This document shows positions 19,608 to 32,673 of a stretch of DNA of 64,000 nucleotides, piece after piece. The notes beneath the pieces are model-generated. The model made no database searches. It saw only the letters and a program-made list of their open reading frames with translations, and was not told the DNA's origin. A program made the position numbers and the translations under genes. Every line of letters starts with the position of its first letter. Positions within the stretch are counted from its first letter, which is position 1. The stretch is from an uncultured Bacteroidota bacterium (lineage in GTDB: Bacteria > Bacteroidota > Bacteroidia > Chitinophagales > Chitinophagaceae): the NCBI GenBank assembly GCA_903904855.1, contig CAIVEH010000216.1, positions 1-64,000 of the forward strand, in the 5' to 3' direction.

Positions 19608-20618
19608 TTAAGATACCAACAGGCTTACCAATCTGTCTACCTCATTTCTGGTTTTTATCTTTGACTCCGGTAGTTCAGAAGTAAGGGCTTTAATAACGGA
19701 TACAGCTATCGAAACCTTATCCATTGGAGCAAACACAAGGCTTGGCACCACCACATCGTGCACATAATCCATATTGCTGGCTATAACCTTCATGCCGCTG
19801 TCCACAGCCTCTATAAGTGGCAGCCCGAAGCTTTCCATTACTGAAGGGAAAATGAGGAAGGGGCATGTGAAATACAGCTCCCTGGGGTCAACATAAACAT
19901 GGTTCACAATCCTTGCCCCACGTGCGTTCAGCTCATTCATACGTGCAATATATTGCGGGCCTGTAGCATCAATGGTCAGATGTAGTTTTGGCGTAAATCC
20001 TTTCTCCAGCAGGTACTCCCAGGCATCGAATAGGGTAGTATGATTTTTTTGTGGGGATGGGTTGCTGATAAAAACAAATTCATCCTTCACCCGTTCATTG
20101 AAAGGCTTGTGCCCGCCAATGTATTTTCTGTCGTCATAGAAAGGTATCTGCAGGCAATGAGCTGTATCTTTTAATCCCAGGCCGGTGAGTTCCTGAACCA
20201 TGTGGGGTGTCTGAACTATATAATAATCAGTATTCTTATTGAACAGTTTTATGACCAGGTATTTCGCATACAGCTTTAGATATTTCGAATTGAATTTCTG
20301 TTTGGGCGCTTCAAGCAATTTCTGGTTATGCGAATAAGTATATACCGGTACTTTCAGTTTCAGTGGGGGCGGGGTATTGGCGAAGCAAAAAACCTTTGAG
20401 TAGTCATTCCTGCGAAGTTTATAAAACCGTATACGGTCTGCCATTTTATTAGGGATGACAATAAAGTTTTTATTGAGTGCAGCTGGCTTATCAAAACGGG
20501 GATCGAGCAGAAAAAAGAAATCATCTTTTTCCGGCCGTTCCAGTATTTTTTCAATCAGGTATTGCAGCAGCACTGCTCCTCCACCTTTGTTGATATACAA
20601 TGCATCAATTAGTATCAT
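19608..20618 (-). CDS. Glycosyltransferase family 1-like protein
   Basis: This is a GT-B fold glycosyltransferase of 336 residues. The N-terminus reads MILIDALYINKGGGAVLLQYLIEKIL. The C-terminal nucleotide-sugar half includes FVFISNPSPQKNHTTLFDAWEYL, HLTIDATGPQ and the conserved acceptor FPSVMESFGLPLIEA, which carries the E-x7-E motif of GT4-type enzymes. It is the third and last gene of a minus-strand operon with 21745 and 20634, 15 bp after the preceding gene. It likely works in surface polysaccharide synthesis; donor and acceptor are not inferable. Confidence 0.85.
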   Translation of the reverse strand: MILIDALYINKGGGAVLLQYLIEKILERPEKDDFFFLLDPRFDKPAALNKNFIVIPNKMADRIRFYKLRRNDYSKVFCFANTPPPLKLKVPVYTYSHNQKLLEAPKQKFNSKYLKLYAKYLVIKLFNKNTDYYIVQTPHMVQELTGLGLKDTAHCLQIPFYDDRKYIGGHKPFNERVKDEFVFISNPSPQKNHTTLFDAWEYLLEKGFTPKLHLTIDATGPQYIARMNELNARGARIVNHVYVDPRELYFTCPFLIFPSVMESFGLPLIEAVDSGMKVIASNMDYVHDVVVPSLVFAPMDKVSIAVSVIKALTSELPESKIKTRNEVDRLVSLLVS

Positions 20619-20633
20619 TCAGCTTTATTTGGA

Positions 20634-21740
20634 TTAATCTTTCACCCAAGGAATCCCTGGTTTCTCCTTTTTATTATAAACACAATCCATTATCTTCAGA
20701 AAATAGCTGGCGCCACCAGCACCGCTCAGCGCTTTATTGGCCCAATCAATAATTTGTGTGTGGCTGGCATAAGAGTCTTGCTGCAGCATTTTGCCAATTG
20801 CTGTCCTGCAACTATCCTCATTTGCCCAATCAAATGTAACACCATTAACCCCGTCTTTTATTACCCAGCTCACCCCGCAAATATTGCTGCAGATAGCCTT
20901 CAGTCCGTTCAGTAACCCCTCGCTGATAATAACACCCCAGCCATCTTTTTGCGTGCTGGGCAATACAACCCAGTCATAGTGGGCATACCTTTCCAGCAGT
21001 TCTTCATGATTGAGGAAAGGGTGAATTGTAATTTTATTTTCAACGTGGTTTTTTATTGCCAGCTGTTTTATCTGTTTCTCATCTGGTCCGGTACCATAAA
21101 GGTCAAGGGTGAAGTTGCTTTTTCCGGAGTTTATAAGCTGCTCTGCAAACCTGTAAATCCCTTTGCCAGGCTCCAGCCTGCCAGCATAAATTATACGCCG
21201 TAGCTCCTTATCGTTTTTTGTTTTTTCAGGTGCAGGAATCAAACTGATAAAATAGGCCCAAGGAAAAATATAGTCCTTATTAAAGCCAAGTTGTTCATAT
21301 TGCGCTACTCCTTTTTTTCCTATTGCCAGTACAAACTGTATGTGCTTTGAATACCTCAGCTTGTAATACTTGTATTTAATGCCCCGCAACCATCCTGTTA
21401 TATTGGCAGGGTTGTAGGGTTCTGTCATTATCCCGATCCTGCATTTTTGATTGATACATTCGTCAAATGCAGCCGATATCATTCGCCCAACCTTAATACC
21501 ACCCATAACATGCACCGCATCTTTATGCTCCTTCACCATTGTGGTGATGGCATTTTTATCCGGAGACCTGATTATTTCCACATGCTCTATAACCGGTACC
21601 TCCCAGCCCATATTTTTCCTGTAGGGTGTTATATCTTCTTCCACCACCAGCACTACCCGGCAATCTGGCAACAGTGCCAGAGCCTCCAGAAATGCCTTCT
21701 GGTGTATGCTGATAATCCCCTGCCAGAAAATAAATACCAT
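20634..21740 (-). CDS. Glycosyltransferase family 4-like protein
   Basis: This is a GT-B glycosyltransferase of 368 residues. Its C-terminal Glycos_transf_1 domain begins with RRIIYAGRLEPGKGIYRFAEQL, followed by LDLYGTGPDEKQIKQLAI and LPSTQKDGWGVIISEGLLNG, containing the catalytic-type E. The N-terminal domain reads MVFIFWQGIISIHQKAFLEALALL and HVMGGIKVGRMISAAF. It is the middle gene of the three-gene operon, 4 bp from the upstream gene. Confidence 0.87.
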   Translation of the reverse strand: MVFIFWQGIISIHQKAFLEALALLPDCRVVLVVEEDITPYRKNMGWEVPVIEHVEIIRSPDKNAITTMVKEHKDAVHVMGGIKVGRMISAAFDECINQKCRIGIMTEPYNPANITGWLRGIKYKYYKLRYSKHIQFVLAIGKKGVAQYEQLGFNKDYIFPWAYFISLIPAPEKTKNDKELRRIIYAGRLEPGKGIYRFAEQLINSGKSNFTLDLYGTGPDEKQIKQLAIKNHVENKITIHPFLNHEELLERYAHYDWVVLPSTQKDGWGVIISEGLLNGLKAICSNICGVSWVIKDGVNGVTFDWANEDSCRTAIGKMLQQDSYASHTQIIDWANKALSGAGGASYFLKIMDCVYNKKEKPGIPWVKD

Positions 21741-21744
21741 AGTC

Positions 21745-22728
21745 CTATTTTGTTGCCAGTTCCTGATATACAGCCAGGTACTGTTCTGCTATTATTTTGT
21801 AATCATATTTAGCTGCATTCTCTCTGCCCCTCGCCACCACATCATCATACAGTTTCTTATCCAGCAATGATAGTATTGCATCCCTTATTTCAACAGGTTT
21901 ATTGGGATCTACCAATACCGCCGAGTCTTTACCAAGTTCCAGCATAGCCCCTATGTTACTGGTAATAACGGGTCGGCCAACACATTGTGCCTCCACAATA
22001 GGCATACCGAAACCTTCATAATGAGAGGCCATAAACAGCACATCGCAGGCCACATAACGCTGGTAAACCTCTTCATCACTTAAGCCGCTGAAAACAGTAT
22101 GTGCAATATTAAATGCTTTCAGTTTTTCCAATTCATCGTGTGCCGGCCAGCCAATAATATTGAGGTGAAAATTTGTCCCTTTTGCAGCTTCAATAAGATT
22201 ATCCAGGTTTTTATGTTTGCCCGTGCCCATCATCAGGATAACCGGAGGTGAATTCAATTTTTCTTTTGCCGAAAACCGGAATACTTTTTTCACCGGGTCG
22301 GGTATTATCCTGATTCTATCTTCTGGAAAGTGAAAATATTTAATCAGTTTTTGTTTGGTGAAATCGGAAACAACGGTAACAATATCAACTTGTTTAAGCG
22401 GCAGGTAAAACCAGAATAAATGATAAACCAGTTTAACAAGTTTGGAATGTACAGGGTTTTCATAAAAGCCGAGATCATGCACAGTAAGAATTGTTTTCTT
22501 TCCCCTCAACCCCATAGCCAGGAAATTTACATCACCTGTAATATGGTTTATTTCACTGGCAAACTTCCCTGCCCTCCTTGTATTCTGCAACCTTGTAAGG
22601 GTGGCATCGCAATAAAAATCCTTTATCTCCACTCTGTCCTGCAGGCACTCTTTTACAGACCTGAATATGCCTTCTATCGAAAGACCTGTTTTCCTTGGTT
22701 CCCTGTAAAAATGTGTTACGCTCAGCAT
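21745..22728 (-). CDS. Glycosyltransferase family 4-like protein
   Basis: This 327-residue glycosyltransferase is the first gene of the operon. Features include the N-terminal acceptor domain (MLSVTHFYREPRKTGLSIEGIFRSV), the middle HITGDVNFLAM and ILTVHDLGFYENPVH, and the C-terminal donor domain PPVILMMGTGKHKNLDNLIEAAK with MASHYEGFGMPIVEAQCVGRPVI, which holds the E-x7-E motif. Three adjacent GT-B enzymes with 4- and 15-bp gaps suggest a short pathway adding successive sugars to one glycan. No flippase or polymerase is adjacent. Confidence 0.87.
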   Translation of the reverse strand: MLSVTHFYREPRKTGLSIEGIFRSVKECLQDRVEIKDFYCDATLTRLQNTRRAGKFASEINHITGDVNFLAMGLRGKKTILTVHDLGFYENPVHSKLVKLVYHLFWFYLPLKQVDIVTVVSDFTKQKLIKYFHFPEDRIRIIPDPVKKVFRFSAKEKLNSPPVILMMGTGKHKNLDNLIEAAKGTNFHLNIIGWPAHDELEKLKAFNIAHTVFSGLSDEEVYQRYVACDVLFMASHYEGFGMPIVEAQCVGRPVITSNIGAMLELGKDSAVLVDPNKPVEIRDAILSLLDKKLYDDVVARGRENAAKYDYKIIAEQYLAVYQELATK

Positions 22729-22925
22729 GGCAATTCTATCGTGGTTTTAATCAGGTTGCCCATGGATTGGCAATAATTTGCAGTAAAAATAACCTATTTG
22801 CCCAAGTAATAAAATCAGGATTTAAACAATAATTATGCAGGTGGCTGAAATGTTTCGGTGATGAATAAACAAACAACCTGGTTATTTTAGCCGGTTTGCT
22901 TTTTCTTATGGAAAATTAGGGGAGG

Positions 22926-23471
22926 ATGTGTCTTTCTAATAAACACATTACTATGGCTGATATGATAGTTTCGCAAAAATGCGGCAGGCGCAAAGTGCAT
23001 ACACCCCGCATAGATTTTACCCCAATGGTTGACCTTGGGTTTATACTCATTACCTTCTTTATCTACACCACAACCATTGCCAAGCCGGGATCACTAGAGA
23101 TTAATATGCCAGCTAAGGAAGCTTCAGGTGAGATAAATGTATATGCCGATACAAGTACCATAACGCTGATACCCGCCGGCAATCACAAAGTGGCCTTTTA
23201 TAAAGGTGCATTCAACGAACTGGAACCACTGAATAACAAGCCAGTAAATGAAGTGAGAGATATGCTAACTGCAATGAAAAAACAGCTTGCTGATCTGCCT
23301 CTTACTTTACCGCTTCAAGCTCATAAACTACATGTGATCATAAAGCCAAATGACAACTGCAAATATGAAGATGTGGTGCAGCTGCTTGATGTTATGAACC
23401 TGGTTGGCGTGCCTTATTATGCACTGGTAGATATAACAAAAGAAGAAAAGCTACAGGCTGATAATTTTTAG
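22926..23471 (+). CDS. ExbD-type biopolymer transport protein
   Basis: This is an inner-membrane ExbD/TolR family protein, normally part of the ExbB-ExbD-TonB energy transducer. It has a cytoplasmic N-terminus with the Bacteroidota pattern RIDFTPMVDLGFILITFFIYTTTIAKPG; the D of PMVDLGF is the proton-path aspartate. A periplasmic domain containing VIIKPNDNCKYEDVVQLLDVMNLVGV follows. The start is ambiguous among in-frame ATGs at 22926, 22953 and 22962. No exbB is adjacent, so partners must be encoded elsewhere. Confidence 0.87.
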   Translation: MCLSNKHITMADMIVSQKCGRRKVHTPRIDFTPMVDLGFILITFFIYTTTIAKPGSLEINMPAKEASGEINVYADTSTITLIPAGNHKVAFYKGAFNELEPLNNKPVNEVRDMLTAMKKQLADLPLTLPLQAHKLHVIIKPNDNCKYEDVVQLLDVMNLVGVPYYALVDITKEEKLQADNF

Positions 23472-23515
23472 GTATTTGTACTAAACTTTGAAAGTGTGGG
23501 ACAACCTGATGATTC

Positions 23516-24288
23516 CTATTCTTTAATAATCCTCTTGTTAATTATTTCGCCCTTAGTATCCCGGATCCGCAGGATATATGTACCTGGCATTAGCGATTTG
23601 GTAGCTACAACTTCCTTATTTGAATTGATTTTATCTGAAAATAGTTCCTGGCCCAGTAAATTGAACAGGCTATAAAAACAGCCGGATGCATTTTCAATGG
23701 TAATATTATATTTCGCCGGATTGGGGTATACTATTATCGAAGTGTTCAGATTCAATCGTTGAATACTAAGTGTGTTTATTCTGGATGCGATTGTTTTTTC
23801 AGTTATAGCTTTGCCACAAGTATTGCTGGTTGTGATGACACAGGTTACTGAATCATTATCTCTTAGTGTGTAGCTGGTGAAAGATATATCGGTCGCTCCG
23901 GCAATGTACGTTTTATTTATAATCCACTGATAGGCAACCGGACCAGATGATCCTGAAACAGAAGCTGTATAAGTAACTGGTTGGCCATAAAATACATTGG
24001 TGTCGGGGTTTGCAGTAATGGTTACAATGGGAATTGATGGGAGTTCAAGTGTCAGTTGGGTGCTGTTGCTCACAGTATCAGGTGTAGCACAATGGGCATT
24101 ACTTTTAAGAATTACTTTTACGATATCCCCAATTGCGGGAGTATAACTAAATTTCTGATCTGCAGAAATATGCAGACCATTTACAAGCCATGTATAGGCA
24201 GGAGCCGAACCACCATTTATTGAAACAGGAGTGAAAGTGGCTACTGAGCCAGTACAAAGGGTGTCGCCCGGGCTTACTGATATATTTA
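23516..24288 (-). pseudogene. 3' half of a T9SS adhesin gene interrupted by a transposon
   Basis: This is the C-terminal 254 residues of a secreted protein. They comprise two Ig-like/PKD modules (SVSPGDTLCTGSVATF...AYTWLVNG and ...NTCGKAITEK) and a Por/type A T9SS sorting domain (IIVYPNPAKYNITIEN...LLGQELFS...LMPGTYILRIRD...KRIIKE). There is no signal peptide and no ATG. The open frame continues into the transposon end and reaches a stop at about 24420. The coding sequence resumes at 27641 in the same frame and strand. Before insertion the gene encoded about 1,523 residues. The fragment is probably not expressed. Confidence 0.88.
24281..24288. repeat. Target site duplication, left copy
   Basis: TATATTTA directly flanks the left terminal inverted repeat. 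The identical octamer flanks the right end at 27641-27648. Eight base pairs is the duplication size known for IS1595-family elements. Confidence 0.88.
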
Positions 24289-24314
24289 CGCAATGATATA
24301 CCATACGCACCAAT
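24289..24314 (+). repeat. Left terminal inverted repeat
   Basis: It reads CGCAATGATATAC then CATACGCACCAAT. It differs from the right repeat only at positions 2, 14 and 16. Confidence 0.88.
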
Positions 24315-24387
24315 GCGCTGGTAACATTTGTATAAATATAGTGAACAAATTCTTTGCCTGATAATTGATTTTTGTGGTGGTTTAAGA

Positions 24388-24418
24388 TTTGTCGGATACC
24401 TTGTTTTGAGTATATTTA
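24388..24418 (+). promoter_or_regulatory. Promoter of the DUF1737 cargo gene
   Basis: TTTG (24388-24391), a 19-bp spacer and TATATTTA (24411-24418; one mismatch to TAnnTTTG) end 4 nt before the ATG at 24423. Confidence 0.55.
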
Positions 24419-24422
24419 CAGT

Positions 24423-24614
24423 ATGGAAATAAAACCAACTGAATATATAATAGTACAAGCAGACACAGCACCTGATTTAGCCAAAGCTGTAACAGCAAAG
24501 ATGAAAGAGGGTTTTCAACCTTTCGGCAATATTGTTTCCGATACAGAGTACCGAGAGAATAAATTCGGTGACGAATTAGAAATACCTGTATTGCTGCAAG
24601 CGATGATCAGGTAG
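24423..24614 (+). CDS. DUF1737 family small protein
   Basis: This 63-residue protein, MEIKPTEYIIVQADTAPDLAKAV...MKEGFQPFGNIVSD...PVLLQAMIR, fits the DUF1737 pattern. That pattern is a short strand Y.V, a helix of the L...V...L..GW.P.G type, and a final strand ending YxQAMxR/K. The Trp of GW is Phe here. Its biochemical role is unknown. The frame opens upstream at 24372, but the ATG at 24423 sits right after a promoter. It is cargo gene 1 of the transposon, tail-to-tail with 24617-24763 with a 2-bp gap. Confidence 0.72.
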   Translation: MEIKPTEYIIVQADTAPDLAKAVTAKMKEGFQPFGNIVSDTEYRENKFGDELEIPVLLQAMIR

Positions 24615-24616
24615 TC

Positions 24617-24763
24617 TTAAATATCTATTTTGGCATCCCGTTCTTCAGATTTTCTGTATCGCTTTTTCATTCTTATATCTCGTATGTCCCCTGATATTTT
24701 TGCGAGATAATAAACAATTGCGCTGTAAAAAGCCGCATCAAGTATTAAATGTAAGTTCCCCAT
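24617..24763 (-). CDS. 48-residue single-pass membrane peptide (transposon cargo)
   Basis: The minus-strand frame runs from ATG 24763 to TAA 24617. It has a hydrophobic N-terminal helix (LHLILDAAFYSAIVYYLAKIS, residues 4-24) followed by a strongly charged tail (DIRDIRMKKRYRKSEERDAKIDI). A small hydrophobic peptide with a basic tail resembles type I toxins or small regulatory membrane proteins, but that is inference only. It is tightly packed against the convergent DUF1737 gene, which supports it being a real gene in a compact cargo. Confidence 0.5.
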   Translation of the reverse strand: MGNLHLILDAAFYSAIVYYLAKISGDIRDIRMKKRYRKSEERDAKIDI

Positions 24764-24789
24764 AACGGTAAATTTTTAGTTCTACCTCC

Positions 24790-24818
24790 AAAAAGCATCC
24801 TGTTTTTCAGGAATGCTA
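24790..24818 (-). terminator. Terminator of the 25213-24816 cargo operon
   Basis: On the minus strand, AGCATTCCTG-AAAAA-CAGGATGCT-TTTT forms a hairpin with one bulged base followed by T residues. The stop codon TAG of the secreted-protein gene is inside the stem. Confidence 0.75.
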
Positions 24819-25208
24819 CTTAAAAAGTTTCGGGAGTACAACACCCATTTTATTTCTTACAATTTCCATAATCACAAGTGCGGAGGCTGCTTTCTGACCA
24901 TCATAGTCGGTCTCCTGACTGAGTTTTTTATAACAGGATATTACTTCTTGAATACTACCCTCATCTTTTTTATCCAGCTTTGATTTGATCGCATCGAATG
25001 CCTTTTGCGCTTGGCAAGCATCTCTATAAGCAGCTTGTTCCATTTGTTCCGACAAATTTACATCATCTAAATGCTGCAATGATTGATTAAGCAGCATACC
25101 TGTATTAAACAGATTGGTACAGAGCAAATATGCATTTACCTGTGATTTTGTTTGTGCATTACCAGAAAAGCACAAACACAGTAATACTGTTGTTAGTAGC
25201 TGTTTCAT
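24816..25208 (-). CDS. Putative secreted helical protein (transposon cargo)
   Basis: This 130-residue protein has a signal peptide (MKQLLTTVLLCLCFSGNAQT) and an all-helical mature part with three cysteines (LLCTNLF, RDACQAQ, VISCYKK). I recognise no family. It is the second gene of a two-gene minus-strand unit, 4 bp from 25213-25476, and is closed by a terminator at its stop. A periplasmic immunity- or inhibitor-like role is imaginable but unsupported. Confidence 0.65.
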   Translation of the reverse strand: MKQLLTTVLLCLCFSGNAQTKSQVNAYLLCTNLFNTGMLLNQSLQHLDDVNLSEQMEQAAYRDACQAQKAFDAIKSKLDKKDEGSIQEVISCYKKLSQETDYDGQKAASALVIMEIVRNKMGVVLPKLFK

Positions 25209-25212
25209 GGTT

Positions 25213-25476
25213 CTAAATTTTAAGTAGTTGAATTGCAGCAGAAATTATTTTTATCTGTGCCGTATTTAGCGAATACTGATTTAGGTGTTTCTCTTTAACT
25301 ATGAAACCTTTTTTAATTAAATCCTTATCCACGACTTTTAGAGGAAGCACTTCATCCGCATATAATTTATTCAGTCGTTCTATTTTGGAATAATTGGATT
25401 CTATTAATTTAAGTACCTTGATACTGTTTGATACATCCCTTTTACTGATGTTTACCAGCCTGTTTTTACGACCCAT
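25213..25476 (-). CDS. Small basic protein of unknown function (transposon cargo)
   Basis: This 87-residue protein (MGRKNRLVNISKRDVSNSIKVLKLIESNYSKIERLNKLYADEV...KEKHLNQYSLNTAQIKIISAAIQLLKI) is predicted helical and basic at the N-terminus. It has no signal peptide and may be a small nucleic-acid-binding or regulatory protein. It is 4 bp upstream of the secreted-protein gene, so the two are surely co-transcribed. I cannot assign a domain. Confidence 0.58.
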   Translation of the reverse strand: MGRKNRLVNISKRDVSNSIKVLKLIESNYSKIERLNKLYADEVLPLKVVDKDLIKKGFIVKEKHLNQYSLNTAQIKIISAAIQLLKI

Positions 25477-25600
25477 TTGGTTTGTTATTTATGAATTATT
25501 AAATAGTTTTTGTACACGGGTTGAAAACCCTTAATTCAGGGTGGCTTATCCATGTACGGATAGCTAAATAATATTTCACAAACCTTATCCAAATAAAATA

Positions 25601-25731
25601 GCGTAACTGACGTTCTCCCGCTATCGTAGGTTTACCACAACCCATTTACGCAAAAGACACAGTTACGCCATAGCTGGCGTACCATAAGTCAATGCGTTGC
25701 GTAAATGGTCAATTGTGGTAATTCACGATAG
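25601..25731. repeat. 131-bp region with two incompatible long pairing schemes
   Basis: Scheme 1 is a long hairpin: CTATCGT (25621-25627) with ACGATAG (25725-25731), TACCACAA (25633-25640) with TTGTGGTA (25713-25720), CCATTTACGCAA (25642-25653) with TTGCGTAAATGG (25697-25708), and an apical ACGCCA-TAGC-TGGCGT (25665-25680). Scheme 2 is GCGTAACTG (25601-25609) with CAGTTACGC (25660-25668), which crosses scheme 1 and uses part of the apical hairpin. This is far too much complementarity for chance. It may be a pseudoknotted RNA, a switch, or a single-stranded DNA recombination site. Confidence 0.7.
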
Positions 25732-25760
25732 CAACACCTTTGTTTACAATACTAAACTTC

Positions 25761-25898
25761 TTACTGCTTTTGTTTATTCAATAGCTTTTCCTTTTTTCTA
25801 AGTTCATCTAATTGTTTGTGTGTCATATGCGGGGTATGGGCAGCTAAACTAATAGCAGCCCTGAAAGCCATCGGCTTTTGGTTTACCTTCTTTGCCAT
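25761..25898 (-). CDS. 45-residue basic peptide (transposon cargo)
   Basis: The minus-strand frame runs from ATG 25898 to TAA 25761: MAKKVNQKPMAFRAAISLA, then AHTPHMTHKQLDELRKKEKLLNKQKQ. It is rich in Lys, Gln and Arg with a C-terminal coiled-coil-like helix. A perfect TACCTTTG promoter box (25933-25940) lies about 34 bp upstream, between it and the transposase gene. It might be a DNA-binding accessory of transposition; there is no direct evidence. Confidence 0.5.
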   Translation of the reverse strand: MAKKVNQKPMAFRAAISLAAHTPHMTHKQLDELRKKEKLLNKQKQ

Positions 25899-25932
25899 AT
25901 CATTCTGATTAATGGTATTGCATTGCATACTT

Positions 25933-25940
25933 CAAAGGTA
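25933..25940 (-). promoter_or_regulatory. -7 promoter box for the 45-residue peptide gene
   Basis: The minus-strand TACCTTTG matches TAnnTTTG perfectly. Confidence 0.5.
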
Positions 25941-25963
25941 GTATTTCAACTGCAATACAGAAA

Positions 25964-26920
25964 TTATTTGGATTTGGGTTTCTGGCTGTTTTTCCAGCTA
26001 TCAAGCTTTATATCCTTGTGTCTTGTACGAACATCTGATTGTTTCATTGCTGATTTGAAAATTAATTCAAGAGCCTTTTTGCGATTGTTGTATCTGAACT
26101 CAAATTCATTCAGGTATCGCTGCAAATGTTCTTTACTCGGTCTGTGATATATTCCAGCAATTAGTTTTCTCAGATGCGCCCATGCACCTTCAATACTGTT
26201 TGTGTGAAAATCACCATCCACATATTGACGTTTGCCATGATTAACCACACCTCTTTTGTATTTTTTGGTCAGGTTGTTATAACCACCCCATTCATCAGAC
26301 ATTAACCATGCTTGTAGTTTTACATTGTCAATGATAATAGGGTGTAATACTTTTTGCGTTACTTTTGGTACTACCTGTATTCGTAATTCCCCAGCTTCGT
26401 TTTTATCACTGTTTCTCTGGCGCATACCAAACACTTTCTGTTTGTTCGTCCCATGTCCCTGCTTTGTCGGTATTGAGGTATCACGAACCATATAAACTTC
26501 ATCAACTTCAATCTTGCCACTAAGCATGTGATTGTATTCTTTGTTGCCCAACATCAAACGAATGTTTTGCTCCATATACCATGCAGACTTTTGTGTAATG
26601 CCAATTTCTTTTGCCAATTGGTGGCTTGACATTCCCTTCTTTGAACATGCTATTAGTTTGATCGCAAGGAACCAATCAGTTAACGGTATTTTAGATGATT
26701 CAAATATTGTACCTGTTGTTACTCTGAATTGTGTACCACAATTGCCACACTTATAAACAGGTCGTGAAGCATACTTGTATATTTTATCTGTGAACCCACA
26801 CTGGTGGCATCTTGGCCTACCCTTCCACAACACTTTCACAAGGTACTCCCTACAGGCTTCGTCTGTATCGAACCTTGCAATGAATCCCTTTATGGACAGT
26901 GTATGTAGTGCGTTTGGCAA
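25964..26920 (-). CDS. IS1595 family (ISXO2-like) transposase
   Basis: This is a DDE-type transposase of 318 residues. The N-terminal zinc ribbon has two CxxC pairs (CHQCGFTDKIYKY...YKCGNCG, about residues 38-63), then FRVTTGTIFESSKIPLTDWFLAI. The catalytic domain contains KIEVDEVY (first Asp), MSDEWGGY (second Asp) and HTNSIEGAWAHLRKLIAGIYHRPSKEHLQRYLNEFEFRYN, typical of IS1595 where the third position is Asn or Glu. No ATG exists before about residue 95; the frame is open from about 26960 and the likely start is TTG 26918-26920. Intact catalytic motifs suggest an active element. Confidence 0.9.
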   Translation of the reverse strand: MPNALHTLSIKGFIARFDTDEACREYLVKVLWKGRPRCHQCGFTDKIYKYASRPVYKCGNCGTQFRVTTGTIFESSKIPLTDWFLAIKLIACSKKGMSSHQLAKEIGITQKSAWYMEQNIRLMLGNKEYNHMLSGKIEVDEVYMVRDTSIPTKQGHGTNKQKVFGMRQRNSDKNEAGELRIQVVPKVTQKVLHPIIIDNVKLQAWLMSDEWGGYNNLTKKYKRGVVNHGKRQYVDGDFHTNSIEGAWAHLRKLIAGIYHRPSKEHLQRYLNEFEFRYNNRKKALELIFKSAMKQSDVRTRHKDIKLDSWKNSQKPKSK

Positions 26921-27075
26921 GCTAAAAATTGTACTATAAAATACAAAATGTAGCTAACAAATTGAAATGTTTACATACTTAATTTCAGGTATAGAGTAAC
27001 ATTTGTGTGAAATTATTACTACAGGTTTGCACCAATAATGAAAACAAATATTTGATATACTAAAAATGGAGTATT

Positions 27076-27083
27076 TAGCTTTG
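27076..27083 (+). promoter_or_regulatory. -7 promoter box of the 62-residue cargo gene
   Basis: TAGCTTTG fits TAnnTTTG perfectly, 19 bp before the ATG at 27103. Confidence 0.5.
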
Positions 27084-27102
27084 TTGCCTAAATCAAACAA
27101 GT

Positions 27103-27291
27103 ATGTCTAAGACTATTAAAAACGAACTAATACCTACAAGCCATGAAGGTGCAGCAGCTTTTCACTCTAACCTAAAGGAAATTCAAATAGCTTTAGGAGG
27201 CTCTGCTAATATAGGCTTGTATCTACAGTGGATGTCCTTACATGAATTAATCAAAATCAGGGAACTTTTAGAAAAACAAGCTAAGAAATAA
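27103..27291 (+). CDS. Small hypothetical protein (transposon cargo)
   Basis: This 62-residue protein, MSKTIKNELIPTSHEGAAAFHSNLKEIQIALGG...LQWMSLHELIKIRELLEKQAKK, is predicted helical. The end (SLHELIKIRELLEKQAKK) is an amphipathic basic helix. It has its own promoter box. Its last 11 bp overlap the 3' end of the convergent 27281-27472 gene. No family is recognised. Confidence 0.58.
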   Translation: MSKTIKNELIPTSHEGAAAFHSNLKEIQIALGGSANIGLYLQWMSLHELIKIRELLEKQAKK

Positions 27292-27472
27292 TTGCGGCAT
27301 TTTTAATTGTTACTGTTTCTACATCTCCTGACATCTTATTGTCGGTAATCCATTTGTTTGCTTTTTCAATGGCTTCCATCATTGAGTTTGCAATTATAAT
27401 TAGTTCCGGTGTTGCTTGGCTGCCTTCTTTATTTAAGAATGGCACAGTACCACTTGTTGCTGAGTAAACCAT
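27281..27472 (-). CDS. Small hypothetical protein (transposon cargo)
   Basis: This 63-residue protein, MVYSATSGTVPFLNKEGSQATPELIIIANSMMEAIEKANKWITDNKMSGDVETVTIKN, has an alpha/beta ferredoxin-like or DUF1737-like pattern (strand, helix AIEKANKWI, strand). It converges on the 62-residue gene with an 11-bp overlap of coding ends. Such an arrangement makes the two mRNAs complementary at their 3' ends. The function is unknown. Confidence 0.55.
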   Translation of the reverse strand: MVYSATSGTVPFLNKEGSQATPELIIIANSMMEAIEKANKWITDNKMSGDVETVTIKNAAIIS

Positions 27473-27563
27473 TTTATAGCCTCTTTTTCTTGGGCTTCAA
27501 CTACGTAAAAGCAGCCACCATAGCCTCTTTAGCTAAAATGACTGCTTAATTTTGCTGTATTTT

Positions 27564-27587
27564 AGGTAAAAATTTGTATTTTTACCT
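27564..27587. terminator. Hairpin near the right end of the transposon
   Basis: AGGTAAAAA-TTTGTA-TTTTTACCT is a perfect 9-bp stem with A/T-rich flanks. It could insulate the cargo from the adhesin fragment transcription that enters from the right. Confidence 0.45.
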
Positions 27588-27614
27588 AACTACCTGATTA
27601 TCAATTAATTGATG

Positions 27615-27640
27615 ATTGGTGCGTTTAGTATATCATTGGG
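27615..27640 (-). repeat. Right terminal inverted repeat
   Basis: On the minus strand it reads CCCAATGATATAC then TAAACGCACCAAT, an inverted copy of the left terminal repeat with three mismatches. Confidence 0.88.
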
Positions 27641-27648
27641 TATATTTA
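27641..27648. repeat. Target site duplication, right copy
   Basis: TATATTTA is identical to 24281-24288. A ninth shared base (C) next to it belongs to the element end on the left side, so 8 bp is preferred. Confidence 0.88.
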
Positions 27649-30600
27649 CTGATGGGATAATAATGGGTGTAATGGTAATAGTAGCACTGTCGTGCATTCT
27701 GAGTTGACAGGTGGACTGGCTGTCATATACTATAACGGAATAATTACCGCTAATTGTTTGCATTCCGAAGTCCATGGAAGTACCTGTGCCAATAATAGTT
27801 GTCATCAATGTAGTATCCTGGTACAGTGTATATTCCAGGCCTGTTGTAGTGCCATTCAATCCTATATTTATACCTGGGCCACCAAAGCAATAGCTGCCAC
27901 CGCCAATTACATTATAAGCCATAGGAATCGGATATACTGTAACTATAATTTTACTGAAACAACCATTAGGTATTGTATAATGAATAATGGCGCCTCCGGT
28001 AGCAGCTCCATAGGTAAGGCCTGTGCCCGTTCCTATAGCTGCAATGGCAGGGTTGCTGCTGCTCCAGGTACCTCCGGAGGAATCATTACTGAATAGAGAT
28101 GAATGACCAATACAGATGTTTGGATTACCTGTTACAGTCCCCGGAGCAGGATTAACTGTAAATGGCGCTGTGGTAATTCCAGTGCCACATGTGTTAGAAA
28201 CAGAATAAGAAATGATTGCTACGCCTGCAGAAATTCCATTTACTTCACCAAGGGCAGAAACACCCGCTATTGCTACATTATCTAAATTCCAAGCGCCTCC
28301 GGGAGTACTGTCGGTTAAGCTGACTGATGCACCTGCACATACAGAATTGGCACCAGCAATTGGCGATACATCTGGTGAAGAAATAATACTGATGGTTTTC
28401 GATATTGTTCTTGCAGTACATGTGTTTGAAACAGTGTAGTGTATAGTATCCAATCCGGTACTTACGCCATGCACCACACCATTAAAGATGGAAGCTGAGC
28501 CATTACTGCAACTCCATATACCTCCATTCGCAATGTTAAATAAAGTATCATTGGCGCCTGTGCAAACTTCATTTCTACCCAAAACAGGATTTGTGCCAAT
28601 AACTGTACTGGCCATATTGGTCAGTACTACAGGGTTATCATCAAAGAAAATGCCTGCCTGATTTTTTATAGTAGTTCCATCCGGCAATCCTTGCTTAGTT
28701 TTAATATTGAAAATAACCACTCCATCAGCCAGGTTGTGATGATTGCTATCGGGAAGATTGACAGATGGCAGGTCAAATTTCGCAATAGTGAAAGCCCCAT
28801 CTTTAATCAAGGTATAGTTCATTATAGAAGATGCAGCTTCAATATTCAAAGTATGGCTATCAAGATTACCGGATAGGGTATCCATTATGTAAATATTATG
28901 GGCAGTGTCGTTTCCTGTGTTTTCAAACCGGATAGTATATTGCAACCGGGTGCATGGCAGAACTGCCCCACCTGGAGAAACCGAAATGTCATTAGGGTCC
29001 AGCGAAGCCCTTACTGTATCGTTTTTAGTAATTACGTTGTTGGAAGTGTCCGTATCACCTCCCATAACTCCGGTTATTCTGTATGTTGAATTTATTGTAT
29101 CAGTCAATAAAAGGAAAGGTAGGCCATAGGGTAACTCAAGCATGTAAGTTATTACTGGCAATGTTGCGGGTGTAACGCCAGTAAAATTCCAGGTAGCAAT
29201 ATTACCTGATATTGAAGTTGGATCAATTGATGCATGAGAAAAATAATACCTGGGGCTAAACTGAAGAGTAACTGTAATGTCATCGGGCAGGCAGGCTGAA
29301 TTGTTGACAATTATAGTTCCTAACTGCCGATGCCTTCCGGTTGTTGTTGAAACATCCATCGAAAGGTCAAAAGCTGTTCCACTGCAATTGAGGCCAAAGT
29401 ATTTTAATTTGGAATTATTGAGCGAGGGTAGAATTGTATCATAAATAATTCCTGATGCCGGGCAGGTAATATGCAGACTGGCGGGTGTTTCAATTACCTT
29501 GAATCCATAGATTGTTCCAGGTCCGCCATAGGCTTTATAATAAAATCCGCATGTACTGCTTATGGTATCTACAGGTATACCATTGGAATCTATCTCAGTT
29601 TTCACCGGCAACCTCAGAAATTGTTCTCCACTGTCAAAGGTGCAGTTATTGTTGGTATCAAAATAGAATTTCACAGGCAGGTTGCGGCAATAGTTGAATT
29701 CGTAGGAATATAGAGTTGAATCTTTCGCCACTGTTTCTTCATATAATACCTGCTTAATGGTATAGGTTCCCGGTTGATGATAGTTATGTATAAAGTCAGC
29801 TGAATTACTTCCTGCAGATATCGGCATATTGGCATCTGTTCCATCTCCGAACCAGGTGGTTACATTTGCAGCAGAAGTCCATCCGCAGGTTTGTATTTTA
29901 AAGTTAGGTATGCTGCAGAAGATGTCAGAAATAAACTGTACGCTATGTGCCGCAATTCTGTTATACACACCGATTATATGACTTGTTGAATAGGAAGATA
30001 AACCAGTTGAGATACAGATTACCTCACACCGGTAATATTGCCTTTCAACCGGATTGAACTGATAGAAATCATCGGTTGCGCCGGGTATTGATGTATATGA
30101 AATGTTGTCCGTTGATTTCTGCCATTGATATCGTATGCCACATCCGCTGCTGGCACCAGTAAGGTTTAATACAACATTAGAATTAGCACATACCTGAAAA
30201 TCAGCAGCGCCAATTGAACCACCAACAGGTGTTCCATAACAGGAGCCATTATAAACTATAATAGATTTTGATGAACTGCAACCTGATGTTGATGTGAAAG
30301 TAATATCAGTCATTCCGGATGTTAATCCTGTAATGCTGCCTGTAATGGAATTAATTGAAGCACATGCCGGACTTCCGATACTCCATGATCCCGGGCCTGC
30401 ACTCTCCGATTCGTAAACTGTTGATCCGATGCAGATGAAGGAAGGTCCCGTGATAGGAGCGATTGCTGGAATAACAGTAACTGGTTCGGTTCTTGAGCAT
30501 CCGACACCAAGTGAGCAGCTAATAAACGTATTTCCTGTTGCCACCGGAGTAAGCAAGCCTGTGAATGTATCAATTAAAGCAACCGATGGATTACTACTTG

Positions 30601-31653
30601 TCCATATGCCACCAGGATATCCACTCGATAATGAAATGGGTGATCCTACACAAACAGATGGTGGTATTGGGAATAGAGGTGTGGTGAAATTTACAGTAAC
30701 GGTAACGGTTGTAAAACATAATGTTGAAAAATTGGTATAGGTAATCGTAGTTACGCCTGAAGAAAGACCCGTAACCACTCCAGTTGCAGCGCCAACAGTT
30801 GCAATTGCAGGCGTAGAACTGCTCCACGTGCCAAAATATCCACTTCCGTCGGTTAAAGTGATTGTAGTGCCTGCACAAAGCGAAGTAGGCCCAAGGATTG
30901 GTCCTGGAACAGGATTAACATTTATTGTTGCAGATCCGGTCATAGTTCTATGGCATCCTGTTGTCGCATACGTAGCTAAAACCGTATATGCACCACCTCC
31001 GGTTTGTAGGCCGAAATCAAGAGGGCTGCCTGTACCAGAAATTGTTCTAACGGTAGAACCATAATACAATAGTGTGTATAATATTCCACCTAATGAGCTC
31101 GAAAGCCCAATATGCATTCCGGGTGAACTCGAGCAAATGCTCCCTCCGCCTGTTATGTTGTATGCCGGTGGAATTGTATTTACTGTGACATTTGTTGTAG
31201 CATATTCAACACCTGTGGAATAGGTAATTGTAGCTATACCAATGGCTACTCCTGTAACCACACCCGTTACAGGATTTACAGTAGCAATAGATAGGTTGTT
31301 GCTCGCCCACGAGCCTCCAGCGGTGGTATCGGTTAATGCAATAGTGCTGCCGGCACAAACACTCACAGGGCCTGATATTAGTCCTACAGTGGCATAAGCT
31401 GCACATGAGAATAATAGCGCAAATAATGAAAGGATAGGTGCTCTCATGAAAAGTAGTTTTTGGGTGAAAACAGGAAAAAATCTATTTATTCAAAGCATAT
31501 TTAGCTTAATTATTCAAATTGAATTATAAAAGTAATAATTTTTGATTAATAATTCCTAGAAGTATACATTTGAAATTCTTTATTTTTAATAGATTTTCTT
31601 TAGCAATAAAGATGTCCTATACTATCAATGTCGTGCTCACCTTTCCAACATTT

Positions 31654-32673
31654 TTATTTTCTACCCTCTAAAAACTTCCTTGCCGCTTCTTCCCCATTGT
31701 TGAATAATAACAGCTTCTGTTCACTGGTAATGTGCCGTACCCTTGGGCTAAGATTACTGGTACTTATGTAAATGGTATGTTTACTTTCTTCGTCGTGGTT
31801 CACCCTTTTATTCAATCCTTCAATCGTCAGGTTATACAGTGCAGCAACATAGCCTTTGAAGGAGTGTATATAGAATGGCGCTATGCCTTTATTGTTCTTT
31901 GAATATTCTATCTGCTCAGGCCGTTCCAGGCTGAGGCCAATTGTATACCGGTTAATTCTTCCGGTCTCATCATCATTAATGGAATTGAAAAGAGTAATCG
32001 GGTAATTGGCAAGCAAACCACCATCAGCATAAACATTGTAATCTACTCCAGCATCCGGGTGATCAACAATGTTGCCTGTACTGTCCAGGAATACTGCGCC
32101 ATAATACAATGGAACAGATGCGCTGGCCCTTACTGCAACTTTTAATGGCATATCGGGATGTGTCTCCCAGCTGAATATTTCAGGTCTTTGTCGGGTAAGA
32201 TTTGTTGCAGTTATGTACAAATCTTTATAATTATGGTGTTGTAGAGCTAGTTTATGCAATTGCAGGAAAGTAGTGTTTTCATTACCTGTGCGGGCTGCTA
32301 TCTGTTGGCCTATCCATGTTTCGAGTTTTATTCCTTTGTACCAGCCATAATTTTTTCTGAGTCTTCTCTGACCACCTAAAAAGAATAGTTCGCCATCATT
32401 GAATTGCCGGATATTCAGCCCAGACATAATTTCCTGCATTTGCACTGCGTTATACCCTGTAGCAAACAATACTCCGGTTATAGCCCCAACCGAAGTGCCT
32501 GCTACTTTTTGGATCGATTGCGTTACCTTTTTTTCTTCCAAAACTTTAATCGCACCCACAAATGCGATACCTCTTATGCCGCCTCCTTTCAGCACCATGT
32601 ATTTATATTCCTGAGCATAAGTATGGCAGGACAAAAGCAATGAGATAAACAGGCAAACGAAACGGCTAATCAT
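31654..32673 (-). CDS. Secreted patatin-like phospholipase
   Basis: This is a patatin-family lipid acyl hydrolase of 339 residues with a signal peptide (MISRFVCLFISLLLSCHTYAQ). The oxyanion hole is KGGGIRGIAFVGAI, the nucleophile elbow GTSVG (Ser near residue 61) and the catalytic Asp in YADGGLLANYPI. The block ITATNLTRQRPEIFSWETHPDMPLKVAVRASASVPLYY is also typical of patatins. It lies in the periplasm or outer membrane. Homologues such as PlpD are fused to a barrel; here there is no barrel domain. It is monocistronic. Confidence 0.9.
   Translation of the reverse strand: MISRFVCLFISLLLSCHTYAQEYKYMVLKGGGIRGIAFVGAIKVLEEKKVTQSIQKVAGTSVGAITGVLFATGYNAVQMQEIMSGLNIRQFNDGELFFLGGQRRLRKNYGWYKGIKLETWIGQQIAARTGNENTTFLQLHKLALQHHNYKDLYITATNLTRQRPEIFSWETHPDMPLKVAVRASASVPLYYGAVFLDSTGNIVDHPDAGVDYNVYADGGLLANYPITLFNSINDDETGRINRYTIGLSLERPEQIEYSKNNKGIAPFYIHSFKGYVAALYNLTIEGLNKRVNHDEESKHTIYISTSNLSPRVRHITSEQKLLLFNNGEEAARKFLEGRK

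Follow-up and report, generated by a model that had tools for sequence, protein, structure and literature searches.

Little work has, to our knowledge, addressed the way in which small transposons govern their cargo once they have inserted at a new site. This question is raised by an element of 3,352 bp (24289..27640, no strand; one copy in the genome), which lies in a stretch of 64,000 nucleotides from an uncultured Bacteroidota bacterium of the Chitinophagaceae (contig CAIVEH010000216.1 of assembly GCA_903904855.1; this whole stretch is hereafter called the window). With a probability of roughly 0.7, the element is a cargo-carrying transposon of the IS1595 type that splits a gene for a protein predicted to be sorted by the type IX secretion system (T9SS), and a hairpin module within its cargo is likely a transcribed 5' leader that switches the gene behind it. 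An earlier interpretation made from the letters of the window (the sequence-only reading) had described the transposon, and it missed this module, which is the most distinctive feature of the cargo.

The element proved to be a genuine cargo transposon with clear boundaries, and its family is known. It ends in terminal inverted repeats of 26 bp (left, 24289..24314, + strand; right, 27615..27640, - strand), which mismatch only at positions 2, 14 and 16, and is flanked on both sides by the octamer TATATTTA as target duplication of 8 bp (24281..24288 and 27641..27648, no strand). The repeats, octamers, coordinates and mismatches had all been given by the sequence-only reading and proved exact. When positions 20001-32000 of the window were scanned, no identical octamers other than those at 24281/27641 enclosed inverted ends that agreed in at least 15 of 20 positions. 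A chance origin of these boundaries was ruled out, since an enclosing pair with at least 16 of 20 matches arose in 0 of 580 shuffled sequences and at 0 of 40 other points of the window; the shuffles used here, like those for the promoter box below, preserve base composition only. The transposase (318 amino acids, 25964..26920, - strand) matched both PF12762 DDE_Tnp_IS1595 (1.4e-35, above the curated cut-off) and PF12760 Zn_ribbon_IS1595 (1.7e-10; 41.1 bits, cut-off 25.4), which bears out the proposal that the 8-bp duplication fits the IS1595 family. Matches to the 24-bp core of the terminal repeats were confined to the two element ends in this genome with up to three mismatches allowed, and an own-genome search for further copies of the 3,352-bp element found none.

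The interrupted gene consists of an N-terminal part on the - strand (27605..31447), in which 1,269 codons are followed by 11 codons read from the element, and a C-terminal part on the same strand (23516..24313) with a Por_Secre_tail sorting domain, whose frame starts inside the element; both assignments were based on frame, domains and joining. Removal of the element together with one octamer yielded a single open frame of 1,523 amino acids with no internal stops. A same-genus genome (G026, locus L167) has an uninterrupted homologue of 1,534 codons from stop to stop and no element at this place. The joined window protein is 71.5% identical to this homologue from end to end (residues 1-1523, one gap position), and the 1,280-amino-acid window protein matched it with 72% identity over residues 1-1270 in a search of 60 genomes. 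The DNA of G026 on both sides of the insertion point is syntenic (75-78% identity). The split of an in-frame T9SS gene of about 1,523 residues, as previously claimed, is thereby confirmed, and the empty site that was to be sought in relatives exists with its flanks kept. Because of the insertion, the C-terminal sorting domain is cut off from the N-terminal 1,269 residues; a natural protein end near residue 1,280 was ruled out by the uninterrupted homologue. The 27605-31447 protein showed 12 matches in its own genome at E 1e-40, itself included, and thus has paralogues.

The hairpin module comprises about 165 bp (25589..25753; - strand as the inferred transcribed strand) and scored 144.8 bits with a covariance model, R1. 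This model was derived from the consensus of 20 copies aligned without structure (alignment A1); the model and the alignments were built on the plus strand, and the transcribed strand is taken to be the minus strand. The A1 consensus showed compensatory changes in 18 of 32 pairs. When 56 copies were aligned to R1 (alignment A2), 25 of 31 pairs showed compensatory changes and 94.4% of 1,728 cells were paired, pair counts which lean toward the R1 structure because A2 was fitted to it; none of 500 shuffles reached this covariation, and slid versions gave 31-48%.

On the gene strand of the window copy, sequence and covariation place the 5' arm (helix 1) at 25714..25732 and the 3' arm, which contains a local mini-hairpin, at 25620..25639 (both - strand). 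Within the apical part of the hairpin, GCGTAACTG (25660..25668, -) is the partner of its complement CAGTTACGC (25601..25609, -), and the two would form a terminator-like or a pseudoknot helix, directly past which the gene strand carries a T-rich tract (25590..25600, -). In the alignment the terminator-like helix GCGUAACUG/CAGUUACGC had 6 of 9 pairs compensated and 90.9% of cells paired (0 of 500 shuffles), likewise with the T-rich tract directly 3' of it on the gene strand. The mini-hairpin GGCU/AGCC had 3 of 4 pairs compensated and 96.0% of cells paired. Both helices compete with the long hairpin.

Two known kinds of element were considered for the module and rejected. In Rfam 15, no family was found at E 1 in positions 24000-28000 of the window, and at 20 further loci with a copy the nine listed hits up to E 1 all lay outside the copies, so that a known Rfam family at the module was ruled out. 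In integron attC sites, conserved R'' and R' boxes pair at the base of the hairpin. A gene cassette of this type was excluded, because a variable basal helix without conserved boxes was seen and arm copies were not in excess. The literature searches gave no description that we recognized as this module and, as far as these and Rfam show, the leader is undescribed.

The module is common to the window element and 18 other delimited elements. In a search with the element, 18 of 99 genomes matched (the own genome included), and 13 of the 17 others did so at the hairpin, over 25591-25759 or a part of it. R1 gave 37 matches within the genus, which fall in 19 of 35 genomes, and it also found copies in 41 of 294 sampled genomes of the family, which belong to 21 of 101 genera (the own genome being counted in both), and in 3 of 395 sampled genomes of the phylum, namely the own genome, one other of the family and one outside the family at a weak score. 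From these searches a set of 58 copies was listed by hand; its 20 places beyond the genus are picked from the family search and are not all hits, and A2 leaves out two weak copies (L106 and L107). Nineteen of the 58 copies each lie in a different element whose 8-bp duplication is perfect and whose ends match at 16 or more of 20 positions (controls 0 of 580 and 0 of 40). Seventeen of these elements, the window element and L011 included, were assigned to the IS1595 type through blastp chaining of their transposases to that of the window and measure 2.7-4.6 kb; the other two (L045 and L046) are of the IS1 type.

Other copies are situated near genes that by eye, with no family search, resemble tyrosine recombinases, excisionases and CHC2 primases. 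With one copy as blastn query, the leader was not found in plasmid or phage collections. A contig catalogued as viral (L171, IMGVR_UViG_3300023076_000006) carries a leader copy with the start-site repeat described below. Another IMG/VR contig (L172) matched the first DNA pattern and gave no leader score up to E 1, and the second pattern matched nothing. Additionally, a genome from another family of the same class (G373, locus L169) gave a weak leader hit of 36 bits, at which an ATG nevertheless follows after 23 nt and the start-site repeat covers 17 nt with a single mismatch.

The position of the module relative to genes is strongly one-sided. An ATG frame of at least 57 amino acids starts 10-42 nt past one fixed module end in 51 of 56 copies, in comparison to 1 of 56 on the other side and 9 of 56 in a shifted window of 143-175 nt. 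The genes behind the leader are mostly unrelated, with a mean column identity of 6%; two of the 56 copies had no frame and were dropped, which left 54 loci, and the protein alignment (A3) holds 53 of these 54, L109 (67 amino acids) being left out. Pfam matches among the 53 genes (25 of 31 families listed) included EGF-type domains (five), response regulators with a LuxR-type domain (three), collagen-like proteins (three), proteins with a sorting tail (two) and one each of AIPR, ResIII and superinfection immunity. PADLOC gave nine families with one member each, and clustering revealed no gene family common to all loci. LuxR-type response regulators of 215-221 amino acids follow the leader at three loci (L045:9002-9165, L049 and L136); on the other side of the leader lies a large divergent frame, outside any delimited element.

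The sequence TAnnTTTG is a promoter motif of Bacteroidota. It occurs on the gene strand 25-95 nt upstream of the module in 17 of 55 loci, with 13 hits at 50-59 nt (shuffle mean 2.3, maximum 8 in 500), and is absent within 110 nt upstream of the window copy. A three-codon mini-frame, ATG-x-x-TAA/TAG, was also seen: 23 of 55 loci have one somewhere in the 200 nt upstream of the leader, in comparison to 6 on the control side, and 18 of the hits lie 30-49 nt upstream on the gene strand.

A further copy of the gene-strand 5' arm stands ahead of the ATG, and differences of the arm between loci are mirrored in the repeat. Over 53 loci (L137 was dropped since its ATG overlaps the module; the starts of L096 and L145 were moved by hand to the next inner ATG), the summed local score against the own arm was 822 in comparison to 576.8 +/- 21.9 for permuted arms (0 of 20,000), and for the outer part of the arm alone 366 in comparison to 313.5 +/- 10.6 (0 of 20,000). 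A start-site repeat with a score of at least 16 is present in 22 of the 53 loci (12 of the 33 loci within the genus and 10 of the 20 outside it); it is 9-19 nt long and ends 0-5 nt before the ATG. Ten further copies were available, which are the loci at hand and not all remaining hits; L079 and L088, two of twelve, were left out as earlier places. Nine of the ten, among them copies from the other-family genome and the IMG/VR contig, combined an ATG spacing of 14-25 nt with the repeat, and L134 had no frame. The own arms of these nine rank 1-2 among 62, and the permutation of this set gave 237 in comparison to 150 +/- 15.3 (0 of 20,000).

Owing to the repeat, two alternative partners, the 5' arm and the start region, are open to the 3' arm. 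In ensembles predicted for the same 53 loci, removal of the 5' arm resulted in a median pairing of 0.68 between the 3' arm and the start region at the 22 loci with the repeat, in comparison to 0.02 at the 31 loci without it. The start region of the 22 loci was predicted to be unpaired with a median of 0.77 in the presence of the 5' arm and 0.37 in its absence. In three loci (L103, L146 and L150), and narrowly in L098, the start-blocking helix was the predicted preference even with the 5' arm present.

These observations suggest how the leader might function. Its transcription would follow the gene strand and begin at a Bacteroidota-type promoter, which in many copies would lie about 50-59 nt upstream. 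The 5' arm would hold the 3' arm in the long hairpin, and the start region would be left open. Occupation or loss of the 5' arm would free the 3' arm to pair with the repeat ahead of the ATG, so that translation is blocked; formation of the GCGUAACUG/CAGUUACGC helix with its U-tract might then stop transcription as well. From the architecture of the leader, the most likely mode in repeat-bearing copies would be an exchange of strands at the start codon. In the window copy at most the hairpin and the attenuator part could act, because there is no start-site repeat and the first frame is 112 nt away. The wider proposal is an undescribed, horizontally moving regulatory RNA, a leader of 165 nt before unrelated cargo genes with a strand-exchange switch; if the start-site repeat truly co-evolves with its own 5' arm, each copy would have a private on/off code. 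We consider the case for this proposal evenly poised. The carriers would be IS1595-type and IS1-like elements and apparently also elements with integrase and primase genes.

Several observations weigh against a transcribed switch. For 18 of the 22 repeat-bearing loci, the long hairpin and not the start-blocking helix was predicted as the ground state, and therefore a trigger must be assumed. With the threshold applied here, no repeat is scored in 31 of the 53 copies. Because the arms of many loci resemble each other, no more than 16 of the 53 spacers match their own arm best or as well as any other arm. The window copy itself (score 10) and its nearest relative, L042, are without the repeat, and their first frames start 112 and 107 nt past the leader. 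The terminator-like helix has fewer pair types than the shuffles, 498 of 500 of which equal or exceed it, and the compensated-pair count of the mini-hairpin was reached by 25 of 500. Furthermore, 39 of the 58 copies were not placed in a delimited element; these cannot be called chromosomal, because many contigs end near the copy.

The pairing of the arms themselves bears on what the module is. In the inner arms (columns 51-59/160-166), neither a G-U nor an A-C pair occurs in 392 cells. Such near-strict Watson-Crick arms are unusual for an RNA and may stem either from selection for a fit to two partners or from a role as DNA. The module would then be a DNA site consisting of an inverted pair and one direct copy, bound by a regulator of changing specificity or extruded as a cruciform for a recombinase; the three matching copies in many loci and the integrase- or excisionase-like genes seen by eye near several copies would also suit this explanation. 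Nevertheless, we regard it as unlikely, since a binding site accounts poorly for an ATG at 10-42 nt in 51 of 56 copies, for the T-rich tract on the gene side and for covariation in the two helices that are alternatives to the long hairpin. Moreover, additional exact inner-arm 8-mers within 3 kb of the 54 loci were not enriched (5 in comparison to 8.8 expected), and the clustered loci share no gene family.

A strand question arises from two near-invariant positions (53/56 and 36/56), which are G-T on the opposite strand and A-C on the gene strand and would thus suit a transcript of the opposite strand. An antisense or small RNA encoded there, which regulates the gene start, would explain why these positions pair only on that strand, yet it is improbable in view of the promoter-like box and the T-rich tract, which favor the gene strand, and of the approximate balance of G-T and A-C (38 vs 50) once the two near-invariant pairs and their poorly paired neighbors, columns 60/159 and 61/158, are excluded. 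Hardly credible is a small mobile sequence that copies its target before start codons: the direct repeat (9-19 nt, with 0-5 nt between it and the ATG; 22/53) and the presence of copies in different element types could be taken for an insertion scar, but the repeat also complements the internal 3' arm and varies with it between loci, and no gene family is common to the clustered loci.

A transcribed leader remains the preferred reading. The nearest relative of the window element, L042 in the same-genus genome G031, has a transposase with 68% amino acid identity, partly similar ends, the hairpin and a 55-amino-acid frame, and lies at a different site with its own 8-bp duplication. At E 1e-4 the two elements had no other frame in common, except for shadow frames over the transposase. 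A transposase search of the genome contigs yielded 18 loci, ten of which are delimited by an 8-bp duplication and inverted ends (one at 1.6 kb, the rest at 2.0-3.8 kb). They represent nine different elements, as L004 and L005 are alike; these two agree in their ends and in the flanking octamer and come from two metagenome-assembled genomes, HGW-Bacteroidetes-2 and -8. An eleventh locus (L021) gave a low-complexity pair and was not counted, and the remaining loci gave no enclosing pair. Cargo beside the transposase, which the sequence-only reading had held to be unusual, is not confined to the window element: 10 of the 18 loci were delimited at up to 3.8 kb, and the 17 leader-bearing elements reach 2.7-4.6 kb.

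Seven small cargo genes had been proposed on both sides of the transposase, a claim that is supported only in part. The 55-amino-acid frame with a MAKK-type stretch (25761..25928, -) is conserved in L042 (62%), and the 87-amino-acid frame that starts 112 nt past the leader (25213..25476, -) has one relative (68%). The 130-amino-acid frame with a start that by eye resembles a signal peptide (24816..25208, -) matched nothing beyond itself. A frame of 63 amino acids from its ATG (24423..24614, +), or of 80 amino acids from an upstream TTG (24372-24614), gave only a weak DUF1737 match, below the cut-off (1.3e-4). Frames of 48 (24617..24763, -), 62 (27103..27291, +) and 63 amino acids (27281..27472, -) were taken from the frame list and are unsupported, with no Pfam match above the cut-off and homologues not searched.

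Lysine-rich frames of 41-59 amino acids (at least 18% lysine) were seen in 14 of the 19 leader-bearing elements (L045, L046, L048, L050, L053, L011, L092, L101, L103, L104, L138, L141, L142 and L150; an uncontrolled count), often adjoining an end. Several have by eye a common KYEEP..FEEAMK-like stretch. The 55-amino-acid frame of the window (25761-25928) resembles them in style and falls under the 18% cut.

If one leader architecture truly serves many elements and the start-site repeat co-varies with it, this would be a portable form of cargo control. The strand-exchange reading makes clear predictions, which are testable by mutation of the arms, and R1 provides a sequence handle for finding cargo-bearing elements in the carrier group.

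Some members of the IS1595 family carry passenger genes. The window element shares with the family the Zn-ribbon and DDE transposase, the inverted repeats and the 8-bp duplication, as these traits are set out in the passages of PMC8101967 on the family, where the N-terminal zinc-finger domain is ascribed to all groups except IS1016. It differs in the extra frames and the leader inside its repeats, in comparison to the single transposase gene which the same passages of PMC8101967 give as usual. The cargo elements of the IS1 type, L045 and L046, have an 8-bp duplication and the same leader as well, whereas their transposase belongs to another family (DDE_Tnp_IS1 match) and their inverted repeats are different (GGTAGTGTC...).

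Among regulatory RNAs, the mRNA leaders of hok-like type I toxins are metastable, and mutually exclusive helices open or close their start region. Mutually exclusive helices at the start region are likewise predicted for the module, but here a repeated 5' arm provides the competitor and the genes behind the module are diverse; we also know of no antisense RNA for it. Transcription attenuators and riboswitch leaders are characterized by a 5' position, alternative helices and a terminator-like helix with a T-rich tract. The module resembles them in all these features, whereas it has no evident ligand, leader peptide or single pathway and travels with mobile elements. Two properties of cis-regulatory leader RNAs, a constant place before the start codon and a covarying structure, were found in the module, with the window copy and L042 among the exceptions as to place.

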